A stretch of 27,027 nt of DNA, from IMG/VR virus record IMGVR_UViG_3300033996_001720, positions 1-27,027 of that record. One strand, written 5' to 3'. Below the pieces are notes generated by a model. That model was not told the DNA's origin and made no database searches. It saw only the letters and a program-made list of their open reading frames with translations. Made by a program: the position numbers and the translations under genes. The stretch's first letter is position 1. The number at the start of each line of letters is the position of its first letter. The stretch comes from a virus. Shown one piece after another: positions 2,156 to 16,266 of this stretch.

Positions 2156-2194
2156 ATTCGTTGTTTTAATTCGTTGTTTTCATTCGTTGTTTTA
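2156..2194. repeat. Three tandem 13-bp repeats upstream of the leftward operon
   Basis: ATTCGTTGTTTT followed by A or C occurs three times head to tail at 2156-2168, 2169-2181 and 2182-2194. On the minus strand the middle of the array reads as a tiny frame, ATG AAA ACA ACG AAT TAA (2183 to 2166). The array lies between the divergent control region and the first leftward gene, in the leader of that transcript. It could be an operator array or a leader element. Confidence 0.7.
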
Positions 2195-2506
2195 ATAAAT
2201 ACCAGACAACCGATGTTTTAATGTACACCAGCTATCCGCTACTTACTTACAGTAACTTCGAGTGACTTTTTTCTTTCCGTCTCGACTCCGGAATCTCTAC
2301 CCTACCAAGTTGTTTGTCGTTGTTTCATTTCCAACTCACAATAAGATATTAGCATGATCTCTAATGTACTATCAATGTTGTTTAAGTATATTTTCAATAT
2401 ATTTTTACTTTTATTCTCTTTTTATACCTTTTATTCTTTTTTTTGATCTGATTATACCCAGGTATACCCTGATTTTTTAATATAACTTATGGTGTTTCCT
2501 TAATAA

Positions 2507-2602
2507 CAACACACGCTTACGAGGTTTTTATGCTTTTATACCTCTTTTTTTTACAAGGAGTTAAGATAATTGGAGACAAGAGGAGCTGGAGAGCGTGTGT
2601 TG
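2507..2602. repeat. 11-bp inverted repeat with arms 74 bp apart
   Basis: CAACACACGCT (2507-2517) and AGCGTGTGTTG (2592-2602) are perfect reverse complements. Their midpoint, about 2554.5, is where the orientation of the surrounding GGTATAA motifs switches. The arms could be paired binding sites of a regulator or the base of a long RNA hairpin. Confidence 0.65.
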
Positions 2603-2712
2603 CTACCAGCTACAGAGAAAAGAGAGAGGAGAGAGAGTTTAGAAAGGTTTAGAATAAAAACGGTATAACGGTATAAAAACGATGTAAGAGCATGAAAATA
2701 CTCAGTTAGTTT

Positions 2713-2721
2713 TGGTATAAT
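2713..2721 (+). promoter_or_regulatory. Extended -10 promoter candidate
   Basis: TGGTATAAT matches the extended -10 form (TGnTATAAT) exactly. No good TTGACA-like hexamer lies at the usual spacing, so it would depend on the TG extension. It would read rightward toward the putative small terminase gene at 2971. Confidence 0.4.
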
Positions 2722-2757
2722 GTAAATTATATTGGAGGATAAGAACACTGTTTACTG

Positions 2758-2786
2758 GTATAAACAAGCGGTTTTATACTCTTTTT
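2758..2786 (+). terminator. AT-rich hairpin followed by a short T run
   Basis: GTATAAA (2758-2764) pairs with TTTATAC (2773-2779) around an 8-nt loop, and TTTTT follows at 2782-2786. As RNA it could act as an attenuator downstream of the TATAAT site at 2716, but the stem is short and AT-rich and overlaps a GGTATAA motif. Confidence 0.25.
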
Positions 2787-2970
2787 GAGTGAAAACCATG
2801 TTATTTTTGAAAGAAAGTGTAAAGGTTTCAAAAAAAAATTCGGTTGTCCTTAATATCCGCAAGACATTCTAAAAGTATAAAGAGCGGATTCAAACATCAT
2901 AATGATGAGAACACACGTGTTGTGATATGCTATTGGTTGTGGATTAGGAATGTATTGATTGGGGGAAATT

Positions 2971-3546
2971 ATGGGCAGGACACTGTTAAAGAATTATACA
3001 GACGATCTGATGGTTCAGATCAAACTTGAGCGAGCTTCGGGACTCACCTACAAAGATATCGCGGAAAATCACGGTGTTGAAGTGCGATCTTTGATAAATG
3101 CCGTGAAAAAATTTGATAAAAAGATCACTCGGATGGAGCCGGCATTGAAAGAATACTTCAATGCATTGGATGTTGTTTTAAGTCAAAAAATAAAAATGGT
3201 TCTTGACTCCATAACACAAGAAAAATGCTCCCAGGCATCACTTCCTCAACTCACTAACTCACTTAATAACCTAAATAATATACGACGATTGGAGAGAGGC
3301 GAGGCGACTAGTCAGAGCGAGGTAAAGTATACAAGCGTAGACCTCACAGAGCACCTAAAACCGATTGACATCACTCCAAAAGACCCAAAAAAATTACCTG
3401 ACATCTCTCCCAGTATGAACCCGTTCCCTTCCTCTTTCGATCCTGCTGTATATAATAGCGCGCCAATCATCCCCAAAAAAGAATACGAACCCGAACCGGT
3501 ATGGTCAACGGATGAGCTTGACGAGGAAGAAACCTTCGACTTTTAG
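2971..3546 (+). CDS. Putative terminase small subunit
   Basis: The 191-residue protein has a helix-turn-helix-like segment at about residues 14-48 (ERASGLTYKDIAENHGVEVR), then a predicted helical middle (about 50-110), a proline-rich linker and a very acidic tail (DELDEEETFDF). DNA-binding N-terminus plus helical oligomerisation region plus acidic tail is the usual layout of small terminase subunits, and the large subunit lies downstream. These subunits recognise the packaging site and load the large subunit. The ATG at 2971 has GGGGGA 4 nt upstream; a TTG at 2959 is the less likely alternative. The call rests on position and layout, not on a family match. Confidence 0.55.
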   Translation: MGRTLLKNYTDDLMVQIKLERASGLTYKDIAENHGVEVRSLINAVKKFDKKITRMEPALKEYFNALDVVLSQKIKMVLDSITQEKCSQASLPQLTNSLNNLNNIRRLERGEATSQSEVKYTSVDLTEHLKPIDITPKDPKKLPDISPSMNPFPSSFDPAVYNSAPIIPKKEYEPEPVWSTDELDEEETFDF

Positions 3547-3553
3547 CCGGTAA

Positions 3554-3733
3554 ACTATATAGTGCCTATATTAAAAAAAAATTTTTTTTTGGCGTAAAGT
3601 TTCTTCAGTATGTAACTATCATCTTGATGTACAGCCATGCATATGGATCTTGATACTATATATATAGTGCATAGAAAAAAGTGCCTATATTAAAAAAATT
3701 TTTTTTTGGCGTAAAGTTTCCTCAGTATGTAAC
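3554..3733. repeat. Duplicated AT-rich element with internal palindromes
   Basis: A unit of about 55 bp occurs at 3561-3616 and again at 3680-3733. Each copy contains AGTGCCTATATT, an A-tract/T-tract palindrome (A9T9, then A7T9) and GGCGTAAAGTTTC followed by TCAGTATGTAAC. Each is preceded by a perfect palindrome, ACTATATAGT (3554-3563) or ACTATATATATAGT (3655-3668). The copies differ by one substitution (T/C) and by A-tract length. ATATAG/CTATAT around TGC (3557-3571) could form a weak hairpin after the small terminase gene. Possible roles are a replication or packaging site, a pair of phage-specific promoters, or terminators. Confidence 0.7.
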
Positions 3734-3808
3734 GTTCTTGGTTTGGGTTACATCCTACCAATAGAACATATGGTCTAAAGTTTTTTGTTTTTTGATTTCG
3801 GATCAATG

Positions 3809-3855
3809 GATGGGGGGGGGTGTGCCCCCAAGGGTAGGCGCGAAAGATCCCCATC
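3809..3855 (+). other. G-rich branched hairpin candidate
   Basis: GATGGGG (3809-3815) pairs with CCCCATC (3849-3855), and inside it GGGGG (3816-3820) pairs with CCCCC (3825-3829) around TGTG. A run of nine G spans 3812-3820. It lies in non-coding sequence between the putative small terminase gene and the next gene. Confidence 0.4.
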
Positions 3856-3880
3856 ACCTATGCTTAACCCCACACGAGTT

Positions 3881-3916
3881 GTAGCGCATTTTTTGTTTTA
3901 GGCTATAATGATGTTT
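3881..3916 (+). promoter_or_regulatory. Promoter-like repeat, copy 1 (TATAAT)
   Basis: This 36-nt unit runs from GTAGCGCATT to ATGATGTTT and includes TTTTAGGC followed by TATAAT (3904-3909). It recurs as a 34-nt unit at 3958-3991. The -10 matches consensus; no -35 hexamer at proper spacing is clear. It would read toward the gene at 4024 and the large terminase. Confidence 0.45.
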
Positions 3917-3938
3917 TACCACACGAGTTGGTAAAACA
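3912..3938 (+). other. 9-bp hairpin between the two promoter-like repeats
   Basis: TGTTTTACC (3912-3920) and GGTAAAACA (3930-3938) form a perfect 9-bp stem with the loop ACACGAGTT. The sequence CACACGAGTTG occurs at 3871-3881 just before promoter-like copy 1 and again at 3920-3930 across the loop. It starts within a few bases of where a transcript from copy 1 would begin. Confidence 0.5.
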
Positions 3939-3957
3939 GGGTTTGCTACCGTAGGCC

Positions 3958-3991
3958 GTAACGCATTTTGTTTTAGGCCATAATCTTGTTT
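3958..3991 (+). promoter_or_regulatory. Promoter-like repeat, copy 2 (CATAAT)
   Basis: This is the second copy of the unit at 3881-3916, two T shorter, with CATAAT (3979-3984) in place of TATAAT. It lies about 35 bp before the ATG at 4024 and overlaps the palindrome at 3986-4000. Confidence 0.4.
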
Positions 3992-4000
3992 GACAAACAA
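3986..4000. promoter_or_regulatory. Operator-like palindrome TTGTTTGACAAACAA
   Basis: Two perfect 7-bp arms flank a single central A. It lies just after promoter-like copy 2 and 23 bp before the ATG at 4024, a typical place for a repressor site. A small RNA hairpin (TTGTT/AACAA) is the alternative. Confidence 0.4.
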
Positions 4001-4023
4001 TATATCTTTAATAGTGTTTTAGT

Positions 4024-4290
4024 ATGAAAGACAAGCTAATAAAAAAGTCCGACCTTAAAAATATCGCTGTCGATGGAGTTAAAGCTGACAAGGCAATCCT
4101 CGACGCAGCGTACGAGCAGATAACAAAAGAGCTTATCGTTGCACGAAAAGCAGGAAAAGACTCTACTAGAATCAAGATTACCAAGTGGAAACCGACATCC
4201 TTGGAGTTGACGAACTCTCTGATAGATCAGGGGTATAACGTAGCTGAACAATTAGTAGGAACAGACAGATTCCTTGTTATTGACTGGTAG
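4024..4290 (+). CDS. Unknown 88-residue protein between the terminase genes
   Basis: The protein begins with a lysine-rich helical half (MKDKLIKKSDLKNIAVDGVK) and ends in an apparent beta-alpha-beta half (STRIKITKWKPTSLELTNSL, then FLVIDW at the terminus). I do not recognise the family. No clear ribosome site precedes the ATG (GTGTTTTAGT), so it may be weakly expressed or start in an unusual way. Its placement between a putative small and a clear large terminase gene, behind its own promoter-like repeats, suggests a packaging or regulatory role, but only by position. Confidence 0.6.
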   Translation: MKDKLIKKSDLKNIAVDGVKADKAILDAAYEQITKELIVARKAGKDSTRIKITKWKPTSLELTNSLIDQGYNVAEQLVGTDRFLVIDW

Positions 4291-4295
4291 GGTTG

Positions 4296-4347
4296 GCTAT
4301 CGCCGACTTGTACTGATAGCACTGCAAAGCAGGGATGGCAAAAGCCG
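4296..4347 (+). other. Chain of short hairpins in the large terminase leader
   Basis: GCTATC (4296-4301) pairs with GATAGC (4315-4320), CTGC (4322-4325) with GCAG (4329-4332) around AAA, and GGC (4338-4340) with GCC (4345-4347) around AAAA. Together with the missing ribosome site before the large terminase gene, this may be a structured leader. The stems are short enough to arise by chance. Confidence 0.3.
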
Positions 4348-4378
4348 TTTCGTACATACAATTTAACATAACTTATTT

Positions 4379-6034
4379 GTGTCACAACATACATTAAAAG
4401 ATAAAAAAGGGTTGACGTTGAACGGAATGAAGTTCGACCCTATTCCTGATGCAAAGTACTTGTATGACTATGAGGAGATACTAAGTAAGGTTAAGGAAGG
4501 AACCTATAACGAGCTTGACACATATAGAGAATTATTCTTTAACGACTTATGGTTTGTCGTTTATTTTATACTAAAAGTTCCCCCTGCTAATCATCCATGG
4601 GTAGTTGATGTCTGTAAGGAAGTGCAGCAAGGTCCTAAGAATAGGACGTTAGACTTATGGGCAAGAGAACATTTTAAGACGACCATCCTTACCACGGCAG
4701 AGCCTATCCAGAATAGAATCAAAAGGGCTATCCTAGAAGGGTTTGAAGAAACTACTGGTATTTTTGCCTACAATAGACCAGTAGCAAAGGCTTTCTTAAG
4801 AGGGATCAAGAACATTTTTGAGCAGTCAGATCTACTAAAGGATATGTTCCCTCAAGTGTGCTGGAAAGAACCCCACAAGGAAGCCCCTAAGTGGTCAGAG
4901 GATGATGGCTTGGTGTTGAAGCGAACGGGGATGCAAAAGGAAAGTTGCTTTGAAGCCTATGGGCTAATTGAAGGTATGCCTACCTCTAAGCACTTTTCGT
5001 ATAGAATCTATGATGATATCTCAACACTGGACCTTGTTGAGACTGAAGCCTCAGTAGCCAAGGTCAAAAGTCGGTTCTACATGAGTGCAAACTTAGGAAC
5101 CATGACCGGAAAGCATAGGGTGACTGGAACGATCTATGATTTCAATGACATTCTTGTCGAGTTGTTGAATAAAAAGGACACGTCTGGGAATGATTTGTAT
5201 CATGTAAGAAAAAAACCAGCGACCCATGATGGGGAGTTTAATGGAGAGCCTGTGCTGTTGCCTCACGAAAGGAATGAGGAACTTAAAGTTGACCCGATTG
5301 CTTACGCAACACAGCAACTTATTGACCCAAGGCGTACTGGAGAGATAAGGAAGATCACCTCAGAGCTACTCGAGGAGGTGTTGCCCCACGATTTGCCTAA
5401 ACATTTGTTCAAATTTTTCACTATCGACCCTGCAGGTGACAAAAAGACCATCAAAAGAGCAAGGGATAGTTGGGCTATGATGATTTGTGGGGTGAGACCC
5501 TACATGGATGAGCTTGGACAGAGTGATTTGTACATTCTGGACATGATTATTGAGCCCATGGCCTTTGATGATGCCATGAAAAACATTGTCGACATGTTCC
5601 TTCGCAACGGAATTGTCTACCGGGTGGGAATAGAGAGCATCGGAAGTAGTATGATAGACATCCATGTAGCTAATGCTCTTCGCGCCAAGGGTAGGATTGT
5701 TACTTTGGAGAATGAGAACCTTGTAAAGCTCCATCCCGCTGGCAGGAAGAAGGCGTATCGGATAGAATCGGCGTTAAGTTGGCCCTTGAGTAACGGGAAA
5801 ATCAAAGTCTCGAAGGGGATTCCTGAAAACTACCGTAAGCGATTAAAAGAAGAGATGGACAAGTTTCCCTTTTGGCACGATGATGCTTTGGATGCGTTGT
5901 CGTATCAATATGATCTCTTTAAGGACTTTCGGTTTGCCCTCTTTAAGCCCCAAGAGTCTAAAGAGGATGCCTATGAGAGGAAGTATCAAGAGATGTTGCA
6001 AGCTAATTCTGGACATGGATGGATGACCGTATGA
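4379..6034 (+). CDS. terL: Terminase large subunit (packaging ATPase and nuclease)
   Basis: This is the motor that drives phage DNA into the prohead and cuts it. The ATPase half has a variant Walker A, WAREHFKTT (residues 94-102), and a Walker B, RIYDD (209-213). The nuclease half has the three acidic sites: D350 in FTIDPAGD, E419 in GIES, and D501/D502 with D505 in FWHDDALDA. The length of 551 residues is normal. The start is uncertain: GTG at 4379 has no ribosome site, and an ATG at 4427 (MKFDPIPDAKYL) would remove 16 residues. An in-frame TAA at 4364 rules out any start further upstream than that. The gene ends in an ATGA overlap with the portal gene. Confidence 0.93.
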   Translation: MSQHTLKDKKGLTLNGMKFDPIPDAKYLYDYEEILSKVKEGTYNELDTYRELFFNDLWFVVYFILKVPPANHPWVVDVCKEVQQGPKNRTLDLWAREHFKTTILTTAEPIQNRIKRAILEGFEETTGIFAYNRPVAKAFLRGIKNIFEQSDLLKDMFPQVCWKEPHKEAPKWSEDDGLVLKRTGMQKESCFEAYGLIEGMPTSKHFSYRIYDDISTLDLVETEASVAKVKSRFYMSANLGTMTGKHRVTGTIYDFNDILVELLNKKDTSGNDLYHVRKKPATHDGEFNGEPVLLPHERNEELKVDPIAYATQQLIDPRRTGEIRKITSELLEEVLPHDLPKHLFKFFTIDPAGDKKTIKRARDSWAMMICGVRPYMDELGQSDLYILDMIIEPMAFDDAMKNIVDMFLRNGIVYRVGIESIGSSMIDIHVANALRAKGRIVTLENENLVKLHPAGRKKAYRIESALSWPLSNGKIKVSKGIPENYRKRLKEEMDKFPFWHDDALDALSYQYDLFKDFRFALFKPQESKEDAYERKYQEMLQANSGHGWMTV

Positions 6035-8253
6035 CGAAATTCACTAAGACAACCCCTAATCCAGTAATAGGGCACGACCATATTGTTTTCCTTGATAATG
6101 ACAACCAGATAGCCCTCACCTCTGTTGATGATGGTCATAGCCACTCGGTTATGTGGATGAGCCCTTCGCTCGACCCTACGACCGGCCAGCCTGTTGGAGA
6201 AGGGTACTGGTATGTGGACTTAGCAGTGGATAAGGATGGTCAGGCGCATGGGCATGATCTTCTGCAGGAGTACCCTAAAGTCTTTGAACCCCAAGATAGG
6301 GATGAGGATGATCCTTTATTTGATGATGACACTTCCAAAGTTGCCGAAGTCGTTAACATCTATAGGGACTTAATGGCTCAGACCGAAGAGTCTTATGAGG
6401 AGTTTGATAAGGCTGAAGAGTTTTATTGTGGACAACAATGGGACGAGGAGGTTAAGCAAAAGCTCAATTCAACCAGTAGGGCCGCTCTCACTATCAACAA
6501 GATAGAGACCGGCATAGATGATTTGTGTGGGTTTCAACGGCAGAATAGAAGTGATTTCAGATACACACCACTAGAAGATGGAGACCAAAGGAAGGCGGAT
6601 ATCCTTAACATTGTGGCAAAGGATATTTGTAGTTTTAGCAACTTCCAAATGGTTGAGAGTGAAGTCTTTCTCGATATTTGTATCGGGGGTTTAGGCTTAT
6701 TCCACGTCAAGGTGGACTTTTCTAACAATATCGAAGGGGATGTGGGGATTACTCGATTCCCTTGGGAAAGAGCAAGGTTAGGTCCACACGATGAGTTGGA
6801 TGGTTCTGATAGAGAGGTGGATACCAAGCATCAATGGCTTAGTTTATCTCATGCAAAGGCAAGGTTCCCTGAATATGCCGAAGAGATTGACACCTATTGG
6901 GATGCCCTTCAAGAAAAGCCAAACGAAGAGTCCTTCCTTGCCGACATCAAAGACCCTTACGCCCATGGCACTCAAAGCTCAGTGGATTTAAGCGCGACCG
7001 ATTTGGTGAACGTTTCCCGCAGAGAGGTGTTGCTATTGGAGATGCTTCGAAAGGAATACTTCTATGCTCCTGCCATGGTATATGAACCAACCTCCGGGGT
7101 GTACGATGGTTTGGGGTGGTCAAAGAAGGATGTCAAAAGAGCTGCGACTATTCCCGGAGTAATTACCGCTCCAAGATACTCTCCAAAGATGCGAAAGACT
7201 GTCATCGTAGGTGGTGTGTTGGTATATGATAAGTCTCCTGCTCCAGTACCCGGAGACACTTTTAATCTCATCCCTGCCTATGGCAAGAGGCGTAGAGGCA
7301 GGTTCTGGGGGAAGGTCAGGTCCGCCATGGACCCTCAGAGGGAATTGAACAAGAGAACGAGTCAAACGATTGATATCGTTAATAGAATGATATCTGACAT
7401 CACCTACTATGATGATTCAACGTTTCCTGATGAGCATGACAAGAACCAGTTCATCAGAAACTCATCGACTCCCGGTTGGACTCAAAGACTTACCGATGTT
7501 AATAAGCGTCCGGTAAGAGAATCAGGTACCCAGTTCCCTGCCGAAGTTGCTCAGTTGATTGCAATGGCTGATGCTCAGTTGACGGCCATAATGAATATAA
7601 AAGCTCAGCCTGTAGCTACTGGCACCGATGGGGCTATATTGATGCAGCAAGTTAGAATGATGCTTGCAGGAAATGAGTATTTGTTTGATAATCTAATTAA
7701 GGCTAAGAAACAGTTAGCCAAATTGCTCATTCATTACATCCAAAAGTATTATACTCCTAAGAGAATCGTGAGACTGATCAGGAAATCTGCAGCGAAACAA
7801 CAAGGGTCTATGATCGGAGGCCAACCGGCAGAGACGTATTCCGATGAGGAAATACAAGCTCTATTCGAAACCTCTGATTTGAGTAGGTACGATGTAGATG
7901 TAAGTGAGAGCGCTTTCAGTCCGACTATGCGTGTAGCTACTCTTTTGGTGTTAAAAGAACTTGCGCAGCAGGGGCAACCCGTTCCCTTCCCTGTTATCAT
8001 TGAGTACATGGATATTCCGCAGGAAGCGAAAGACAAGATGTTACTTGCCTATAGCCAACAGCAACAAGCTCAAGCCTCTGCTCAGGAAGCTACTTCCGAG
8101 ATGGAGACAACTAAGACGGCTCTTGCTCAAGGCATTGTTCCTCCGAAATTCCGGTACCAGATGGAGCAACAGCAGAAGGAAGTTGATCAACTAAAAGCAC
8201 AAGAACAGCAGCAACAAGGGCAATTCCCCGCACCGGGAATCCTTAACCAGTAA
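6031..8253 (+). CDS. Portal protein, P22 gp1-like
   Basis: The 740-residue product matches the P22-type portal size (about 725) and contains the family-like stretch EEFYCGQQWDEEV followed by LNSTSRAALTINKI and GFQRQNR. It forms the dodecameric DNA channel at one capsid vertex. The ATG at 6031 overlaps the terminase stop (ATGA), which is why I prefer it; an in-frame ATG at 6019 would add four residues. The first 80 residues are an unusual histidine-rich extension with HDH, HSH and HGH pairs (H15/H17, H36/H38, H73/H75). The C-terminus is glutamine-rich (about residues 670-740), like the helical barrel end of P22-type portals. Confidence 0.9.
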   Translation: MTKFTKTTPNPVIGHDHIVFLDNDNQIALTSVDDGHSHSVMWMSPSLDPTTGQPVGEGYWYVDLAVDKDGQAHGHDLLQEYPKVFEPQDRDEDDPLFDDDTSKVAEVVNIYRDLMAQTEESYEEFDKAEEFYCGQQWDEEVKQKLNSTSRAALTINKIETGIDDLCGFQRQNRSDFRYTPLEDGDQRKADILNIVAKDICSFSNFQMVESEVFLDICIGGLGLFHVKVDFSNNIEGDVGITRFPWERARLGPHDELDGSDREVDTKHQWLSLSHAKARFPEYAEEIDTYWDALQEKPNEESFLADIKDPYAHGTQSSVDLSATDLVNVSRREVLLLEMLRKEYFYAPAMVYEPTSGVYDGLGWSKKDVKRAATIPGVITAPRYSPKMRKTVIVGGVLVYDKSPAPVPGDTFNLIPAYGKRRRGRFWGKVRSAMDPQRELNKRTSQTIDIVNRMISDITYYDDSTFPDEHDKNQFIRNSSTPGWTQRLTDVNKRPVRESGTQFPAEVAQLIAMADAQLTAIMNIKAQPVATGTDGAILMQQVRMMLAGNEYLFDNLIKAKKQLAKLLIHYIQKYYTPKRIVRLIRKSAAKQQGSMIGGQPAETYSDEEIQALFETSDLSRYDVDVSESAFSPTMRVATLLVLKELAQQGQPVPFPVIIEYMDIPQEAKDKMLLAYSQQQQAQASAQEATSEMETTKTALAQGIVPPKFRYQMEQQQKEVDQLKAQEQQQQGQFPAPGILNQ

Positions 8254-14278: not shown

Positions 14279-15031
14279 ATGCCAGATAATCGAATGGGAC
14301 CATCAGCAAGTCCTGATATGTTCAAAAGCCTTTTGAATTTCATGAGCCAGTATGGTCAGCAAATGGGAAGCATGGGGAACATGGGGGACATAGCGGCACA
14401 ACTTGCTGGGAAGCAAATGGGAAGCATGGGGAACATGGGGGACATAGCGGCACAACTTGCCGGGATGAATGGTAATATTGACCCCGGCTTTAATTATACC
14501 CCCGGCCAGAATATTGATCCCGGATTCTTTCGACCTCAAGGTAGCTTAGGGGCCGACCCCGGCTTTAATTATATTCCCGGTAGCTTATTAGGGGCCGGTA
14601 TTGGTGCAGCTCAAGGCTTGCAAAAGCCTATGGTTGGGCAATCAGTACCCGGAATACCTAACCAGAATCGCAATCCTGCTCAAGCGAATCTTAATCAGGG
14701 TATGCGGGCAGCTCAAATGGGAGACTTCCGGAACAACTGGCTCCAAGGCAACGGACAGCCAAGGATTCCAGTAGTCCACGATAGAACCGGAGCCTCGGCC
14801 AATACCCTTTCTAAAGGTCAGCGAATGAGGTTTGACAATATTCGCAACCTGTACGGCGGGGAAAGAGCTGCAGAGGCGCGAGCCAACATGTTGATGCACA
14901 ATGCCCGTAAGATGGTTCCTGCGGTCCCTACTGGAGAGCCAGATTCCGGTATGCTGGCAGCTATGAGACGAATTAGAGCCATTGAAGCACGACCAGAGAT
15001 CCCAAGGGCAAGACGAGGAAGAAGAAAGTAA
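14279..15031 (+). CDS. Putative ejection protein with internal tandem repeat
   Basis: The 250-residue protein has low-complexity methionine-, glycine-, asparagine- and proline-rich sequence. QMGSMGNMGDIAAQLAG occurs twice in tandem (54-bp DNA period), and DPGFNYTPG, DPGFFRPQG and DPGFNYIPG form a looser repeat. The C-terminus is strongly basic (RRIRAIEARPEIPRARRGRR). AAGGGG lies before the ATG. Its place among the putative ejection genes and its disordered composition suggest an injected or internal virion protein. The last base of its TAA is the first base of the next ATG. Confidence 0.5.
   Translation: MPDNRMGPSASPDMFKSLLNFMSQYGQQMGSMGNMGDIAAQLAGKQMGSMGNMGDIAAQLAGMNGNIDPGFNYTPGQNIDPGFFRPQGSLGADPGFNYIPGSLLGAGIGAAQGLQKPMVGQSVPGIPNQNRNPAQANLNQGMRAAQMGDFRNNWLQGNGQPRIPVVHDRTGASANTLSKGQRMRFDNIRNLYGGERAAEARANMLMHNARKMVPAVPTGEPDSGMLAAMRRIRAIEARPEIPRARRGRRK
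14359..14466 (+). repeat. 54-bp tandem duplication within a coding gene
   Basis: Bases 14359-14412 are repeated at 14413-14466 with a difference in the last few bases (CTGGGAA against CCGGGAT), so the two copies are almost identical. The unit is 18 codons long, so the frame is kept. The near identity points to a recent duplication or ongoing slippage. Confidence 0.9.
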
Positions 15032-16266
15032 TGGCAAAAATCCCTAAAAAGAAGAAGTCAGATCGTGGTCGTAATGGAGATGGGGACGGCAAGGAGAACG
15101 AGCAAGGGGGCGAGACCCCCATGCCCGGTAACACCGCTGCGCCTGCTTCTGTTCAGGAACGACTTAACGAGCGCCAGAGAGCGCAGTTCAAGAAGATTCA
15201 GAAAGCTCAAGGAGAGAAGGCAGCTTCAGAGTACCGGATAAAGAAATTAGCGGTGAACCGAAGAAGGTCGGCAGCTCCTTCGCAAGCCCCACAAGCTCCT
15301 TCGGAACCTCAATATCCTGCCGAGACTAGCCCAACAAAGGGTTATCCACAGGGTATGCCCACTGATTCAGGGGGGGTTGACCCCAATGGGGGCTTGAATA
15401 ATCCAGATTTCTGGTACCCTGGACTAGGAGACACTCCAGAGAATCTGGCAGGTGGGATGCCAGACTTTCTTGGTCTAGGCAATATTAAAGACCTTGTAAA
15501 CCAGCTCAATCCAGACTTGTTTGCAATGGGGCCGGACAACTACACACCTTCAGCATACTACGACCAGATGCAGAAGACAGGTAGTGAGCAGCTCGATAAA
15601 GCCTATGCTAAGCGTGGGCTATTTGGATCGGGTGCTGCAATCCAAGGCCAGTCAGATCTTACCCAAAAGCTCTTAGCTGATGATGTTGAGCGAGCTAAAG
15701 CCTTACATGCAGAAAGGCAAGGCAACCTCATGAGCGGTCTAACCAACCTCATGGGAACTTACTCCAATAACTTGAATAACTTCTATGGTTTGAAGCAGGG
15801 GTATGATACCAGTGCAGCAAACATGGGATTGAACTTAGCGGAGTTCGACAACAAAACCAGACAGCAAGGTATCGATAACAAGATGAACCTGTTTCGAGAA
15901 CTTTTGGGTATGAATCCATTAGGAACTGCAGCTACTATGTCAGGCCAAGGGGCAGGGATAGATCAAGGATATGCTGGCGGAATCGCGGATGCCACAGGGA
16001 ACATCTTCAATAGACCAACTCAGACCTCTAACTTCGGTGGTGGTAGTGGTCCTTATGTCGCTCCTCCTCCCGGAGGACCAGACTATACCGCCAGAGACAG
16101 GGCAGCACTGCAAGCTCAGATAGCAAATATCATGGGACCAGCAACAGCGAATTGGTATGGCAGTGGTCAGGGTGGGACACAAGGATCTGGCAACTCTCTC
16201 TCTCAGATAGGTAATACTATATCTGGTTTGGGTAACGTGTGGAAGGGAATACGTAGTTTATTTTAA
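15031..16266 (+). CDS. Putative ejection protein
   Basis: The 411-residue protein has a very basic N-terminus (MAKIPKKKKSDRGRNGDG), a proline-alanine-glutamine linker (SAAPSQAPQAPSEPQYP), a helical centre with KAYAKRGLFGSGAAIQGQSD and a long helix LADDVERAKALHAERQGNLM, and a glycine-rich C-terminus. The 'KRGLFGSGAA' segment within long helices recalls internal virion proteins of short-tailed phages, so a role in the ejectosome is inferred. It is translationally coupled to the gene before it (TAATG). A family name cannot be given with confidence. Confidence 0.55.
   Translation: MAKIPKKKKSDRGRNGDGDGKENEQGGETPMPGNTAAPASVQERLNERQRAQFKKIQKAQGEKAASEYRIKKLAVNRRRSAAPSQAPQAPSEPQYPAETSPTKGYPQGMPTDSGGVDPNGGLNNPDFWYPGLGDTPENLAGGMPDFLGLGNIKDLVNQLNPDLFAMGPDNYTPSAYYDQMQKTGSEQLDKAYAKRGLFGSGAAIQGQSDLTQKLLADDVERAKALHAERQGNLMSGLTNLMGTYSNNLNNFYGLKQGYDTSAANMGLNLAEFDNKTRQQGIDNKMNLFRELLGMNPLGTAATMSGQGAGIDQGYAGGIADATGNIFNRPTQTSNFGGGSGPYVAPPPGGPDYTARDRAALQAQIANIMGPATANWYGSGQGGTQGSGNSLSQIGNTISGLGNVWKGIRSLF

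Follow-up and report, generated by a model that had tools for sequence, protein, structure and literature searches.

An AT-rich gap separates the leftward small genes from the rightward packaging and structural genes of an uncultured podovirus-like phage, and the heptamer GGTATAA is repeated in it on both strands. Are these copies promoters, and if so for which polymerase, or are they operators of a switch between the two clusters? We analyzed the entire virus record (27,027 bases, a fragment of the phage genome), referred to below as the window.

GGTATAA copies in the divergent gap

Counted on both strands, the window contains 10 copies of GGTATAA. Seven of them lie within 2422-2763, three on the minus and four on the plus strand, at the positions given in the original prediction (see the table). 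By chance 3.1 copies are expected in the whole window, which agrees with the few that had been estimated, and the remaining three, inside coding regions (4232 +, 14494 -, 22942 -), are close to that rate; the motif is not equally common elsewhere. Dinucleotide shuffles of 2422-2763 (n=2000) held a mean of 0.09 copies and a maximum of 3, and none of them reached seven. When any 7-mer was allowed, seven copies were reached in 0.35% of the shuffles.

Each site is directed toward its adjacent gene cluster, so that all seven point away from a centre near 2555, as had been proposed. The strict mirror arrangement proposed with it is not borne out: the distances among the sites show no mirror symmetry, and the palindrome GGTATACC, in the left half, holds a rightward-pointing GGTATAC. 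The outward orientation alone is weak evidence, because with a free breakpoint it is found in 8/128 patterns (~6% by chance) and because the plus strand is pyrimidine-rich left of ~2555 and purine-rich to the right, a bias that favours the same directions and that our test somewhat overstates, since the shuffled halves keep the motifs.

An array of this kind might also have no function and have arisen by chance or drift, as A/T-rich words were duplicated locally in an AT-rich gap. The 2662 and 2670 sites form a tandem 8-bp duplication, the flanks of the 2422 and 2662 sites have AGAATAAAA in common, and strand composition explains the direction. Given the shuffling result, and a -35 signal that appears at a single spacer (see below), we find this explanation hardly credible.

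Table. Features of the control region and of the genes on either side (positions in the window; spacers in bp).
Feature	Position	Strand	Basis and details
Gene product 88 family, leftward small gene	881-168	-	family match
DUF6926, leftward small gene	1213-956	-	family match
Leftward small gene	1625-1317	-	ORF map
First leftward small gene, 152 aa	1699..2157	-	ORF map
AT-rich divergent intergenic region, 32% GC	2158..2970	.	ORF map and GC; between leftward small genes and rightward TerS-like gene
GGTATAA	2422-2428	-	A-rich surroundings; -35 match 0; no TG
GGTATAA	2452-2458	-	-10 TATAAT 2451-2456; -35-like TTAAAA 2475-2480; spacer 18
GGTATACC palindrome beside 2452 site	2461-2468	.	sequence; TATACC-CA-GGTATA dyad at 2453-2466
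Inverted repeat TAACAACACACGCT / AGCGTGTGTTGCTA	2504..2605	.	13/14 complementary; arms 74 nt apart; centre ~2555
GGTATAA	2536-2542	-	-10 TATAAA 2535-2540; -35-like TTAACT 2559-2564; spacer 18
GGTATAA	2662-2668	+	-10 TATAAC 2664-2669; -35-like TAGAAA 2640-2645; spacer 18
GGTATAA	2670-2676	+	-10 TATAAA 2672-2677; -35-like TTTAGA 2648-2653; spacer 18
GGTATAA	2714-2720	+	-10 TATAAT 2716-2721, TG upstream (extended -10); -35-like ATGAAA 2692-2697; spacer 18
GGTATAA	2757-2763	+	TG in front (TGGTATAAA), extended -10 like; -35 match 0
TerS-like gene, 191 aa, first rightward gene	2971..3546	+	position before terL and alignment; ORF finder start: TTG at 2959
88-aa gene	between TerS-like gene and large terminase	+	ORF map
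Large terminase	4379..6034	+	phrog_38, E=3e-32
P22-like portal	6019..8253	+	PF16510, E=1e-75

A -35-like signal 18 bp upstream of the -10-like hexamers

The sites had been described as -10-like elements of a divergent control region, without clear -35 boxes. The description of the -10 is upheld: every site contains a TATAAN hexamer close to the sigma70 TATAAT (TATAAT in 2/7, TATAAA in 4/7 and TATAAC in 1/7), in the gap between the two clusters. Hexamers resembling a -35, however, can be recognized at most of the sites. Keeping the spacer constant across the sites, we looked for TTGACA-like hexamers ahead of TATAAN and tried each spacer from 6 to 35. Exactly 18 bp before TATAAN, within the 16-18 bp of sigma70-type promoters, a hexamer matching TTGACA at 4/6 positions occurs at five of the seven sites (2452-, 2536-, 2662+, 2670+ and 2714+), the exceptions being 2422 and 2757. 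The summed -35 score is 23 at this spacer and does not exceed 16 at any other; 23 was reached by 0/3000 dinucleotide shuffles and at 0/112 slid positions. In the same stretch and strands 17/411 hexamers (4.1%) match TTGACA at 4/6, and against this background the binomial P is 2.4e-6 at one spacer and 1.2e-5 when five spacers are allowed for. Of the 54 other TATAA sites in the window, one is preceded by a match of this quality at that spacer. The sigma70 -35 test was picked after the sites had been seen, and an unguided column-information search for a conserved upstream element found nothing significant, so that the support for the -35 depends on the prior choice of the sigma70 consensus.

In our reading, to which we give a probability of roughly 0.6, the array consists of sigma70-type promoters, tandem and divergent, placed between the leftward small genes and the TerS-TerL-portal-capsid cluster. 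GGTATAA would provide the -10 hexamer with a GG just upstream that works like an extended -10, and five or more of the seven sites would have a weak TTnAnA-like -35 at 18 bp upstream. The host RNA polymerase, carrying its main sigma factor, would initiate at two to three leftward and three to four rightward starts and transcribe outward from the centre. With 10/12 matches to the sigma70 consensus each, 2452(-) and 2714(+) are the best candidates for a leftward and a rightward promoter, respectively. The GG may reflect a preference of the host sigma factor or form part of an overlapping operator. Promoter activity, reading by the host enzyme and any timing or repression are what we infer from this layout.

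Several promoters packed where opposite clusters meet are reminiscent of the lambda-type divergent region and of the tandem T7 promoters A1-A3, and the sigma70 early promoters of lambda and T7 likewise combine a TATAAN -10 with a -35 at a near-standard spacer. In contrast to these, the window has weak -35 hexamers (4/6), a spacer of 18 rather than 17, a GG before every -10 and a rightward cluster that starts with packaging genes. Several observations count against sigma70 promoters. Two sites have no -35 and the others match at only 4/6 positions, the array is missing in the nearest relative, and the final T of the -10, among the most conserved positions in sigma70 promoters, is absent in 5/7 sites. 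The GG is invariant in the array, which is stricter than sigma70 alone requires, and host promoters without regulation would make the packaging genes early, an unusual timing. A divergent promoter cluster is a common phage arrangement that requires no new polymerase, and the region, although neatly built, is ordinary for phage control regions. Its interest is that the phage's likely control region can be placed on the map, and that several ordinary bipartite promoters account better for a motif that had seemed polymerase-specific.

The original prediction had offered promoters for an altered polymerase. With a -35-like hexamer at 18 bp, neither an altered polymerase nor a special sigma factor is necessary. 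No match to RNA_pol (PF00940) was found in the window and nine related records (three of ~41 kb), an absence that is uninformative alone since the profile matched none of its controls either. Sigma70_r2 (PF04542) had no match in the same ten records and did match its positive controls, although such sigma factors are divergent and the window is a fragment. Together with the -35 signal these searches disfavour an altered polymerase. In the literature we found nothing specific on GGTATAA phage promoters.

A phage-encoded sigma factor that needs just a -10-like motif is a related proposal, for which phages 7-11 and phiEco32 are the precedents. Phage 7-11 carries a TATA-containing motif four times at its divergence point, within the first intergenic region of the structural cluster (PMC4331800), and the layout of the window is the same. 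The motif of these phages, TGATGT-TATA / TAATGTATA, is read by a phage-encoded sigma factor, and in phiEco32 it stands upstream of several genes (PMC4331800), whereas the GGTATAA array is restricted to one gap. The window motif also differs in its accompanying -35-like hexamers, present at 18 bp in 5/7 sites where a -10-like motif without a -35 would be expected, and 0/10 records matched Sigma70_r2, so no such factor was found in the relatives. We consider this proposal improbable.

The same gap in related phages

Searches with terminase, portal and capsid sequences yielded dozens of contigs, among which L059 is the nearest relative by terminase (TerL 69% identical). The original prediction had suggested a search for the same arrangement in related phages. 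No GGTATAA occurs upstream of the TerS-like gene of L059, where the sequence is not AT-rich, and no cluster of the motif was found in the other related loci tested. The array is not conserved. Scans with a single portal sequence, a TerL pair or the TerL family detected no near twin of the window. A prophage scan of bacterial genomes returned one contig, from a Kaiserbacteria MAG, whose upstream part was too short to inform. Exact GGTATAANGGTATAA occurs in about 120 stretches of viral contigs, apparently unrelated, which is the chance expectation because the collection is so large.

The first rightward gene of the window is called TerS-like from its position and from alignment, because no protein family matched it; the protein aligns with those encoded at the same place in L059 (35%), L022, L023 and L015. 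After the portal gene follow a gene in the scaffold position, the major capsid gene and further virion genes. The TerS-like gene starts ~207 bp right of the last GGTATAA site, and the array could accordingly be imagined as a packaging start (pac or cosB-like) bound by the product of that gene. In lambda cosB and SPP1 pac, repeated TerS-binding boxes lie near the TerS gene, a likeness that favours this idea, as does L015, which likewise has an array before TerS. However, L059, whose TerS is most like that of the window, has no such array, and neither the outward orientation nor the -35 spacing is predicted. A packaging role is possible but less likely, and as an explanation of the array we regard it as very unlikely.

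The relatives bear more directly on regulation. In L022 and L023, which are related to the window in TerL, portal and capsid and are temperate, with an integrase further left, a Cro/CI-type HTH gene (HTH_3/HTH_26) lies at the right edge of the gap, which has two short dyads and no GGTATAA array; the first leftward gene of L023 encodes an ArdC-type antirestriction protein. L064, with a related TerL, has the same layout with a Cro/CI-type gene in the gap, as judged by inspection of open frames and sequence. These switches occupy the same place as the array, between leftward small genes and a TerS-like gene. L015 (capsid 46-49%) shares the divergent layout, and its gap before TerS holds a different, highly significant array, of AAAAGTATCATT. 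From such comparisons the gap looks like a control region of variable content in several members of the group.

The presence of Cro/CI-type regulators in the gap of L022 and L023 keeps regulated switching plausible, and by analogy a phage protein may regulate the array. A repressor or activator encoded by the phage might then recognize GGTATAA, with the array as its operator set; where operators overlap promoters, one protein would switch both clusters together. This tentative alternative is in line with the invariant GG, with the 8-10 bp steps between GGTATAA/GGTATAC copies at 2452/2462 and 2662/2670, with the GGTATACC palindrome, whose dyad is a possible operator, with the HTH genes and short dyads of L022 and L023, and with the ~20-bp steps of the AAAAGTATCATT array. 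It is weakened by irregular spacing (starts 8-126 bp apart), by most sites not being dyads, and by the 18-bp -35 signal, which an operator model alone does not predict. Unlike L022 and L023, the window has no HTH_3 match, and no regulator gene adjoining the array was seen in the 27-kb fragment. Ribbon-helix-helix arrays such as pSM19035 omega/parS, with 7-10 consecutive heptads (PMC9499535), differ in their spacing, and no leftward protein matched an RHH family. The proposed switch between the clusters is neither demonstrated nor excluded: this gap carries a regulator gene or a repeat array in relatives, but no cognate regulator was identified in the window.

Somewhat less likely again is a combination of the two, in which GGTATAA serves as -10 and as operator alike, and a single phage regulator flips the seven-promoter bank between the clusters. 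If so, the same gap, with unrelated repeats in L015 and a Cro-type gene in L022 and L023, would be a hot spot for wholesale swapping of switch systems. The sigma70-type promoters that we prefer would, if regulated, make a compact switch between small leftward and packaging genes, with other regulators at the same place in relatives of the group.

Further elements of the window and its relatives

The inverted repeat TAACAACACACGCT / AGCGTGTGTTGCTA is centred within the array; exact inverted repeats of at least 11 bp were present in 7/300 shuffles. Two overlapping putative short open frames, 2530-2652 and 2570-2668 (+; 40 and 32 aa), lie in the middle of the control region with Shine-Dalgarno-like sequence upstream. 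No RNA families or tRNAs were found. We rejected a DnaA-box origin for the gap: the exact box occurs in the window solely at 15342. DnaA-like boxes are found near TerS in L059 and L015. In L059 they are tandem TGTGGATAA repeats (465-512), ~190 bp upstream of the TerS-like gene, which may be an origin marker in the group; in L015 they accompany the AAAAGTATCATT array and a 34-nt inverted repeat (3900-4540). The terL of L059 (2282-4936) contains an in-frame insert, probably an intein, that carries LAGLIDADG homing-endonuclease domains; the terL of the window lacks it.

On the minus strand, nested RNA hairpins recur in the spacers of the leftward small genes (882-958, 1199-1262, 1262-1320, 1626-1700, and also 95-170), mostly immediately ahead of a Shine-Dalgarno sequence and start codon. 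An outer stem GCGTTGAA/TTGAACGC surrounds a GC-rich inner hairpin; two copies have AATCG/CGATT instead, preserving the pairing, and the folding z-scores range from -2.7 to -5.7. In viral contigs the exact outer stem turned up as single, chance-like matches only. In a non-coding 478-bp stretch after the TerS-like gene (3560-3990), GTGCCTATATTAAAAAAA...GGCGTAAAGTTTCYTCAGTATGTAAC occurs twice, as does a promoter-like unit, GTTTTAGGCYATAAT. Within a gene of the virion cluster, a 54-bp tandem duplication (14358-14465, 98% identical) encodes a repeated KQMGSMGNMGDIAAQLAG peptide.
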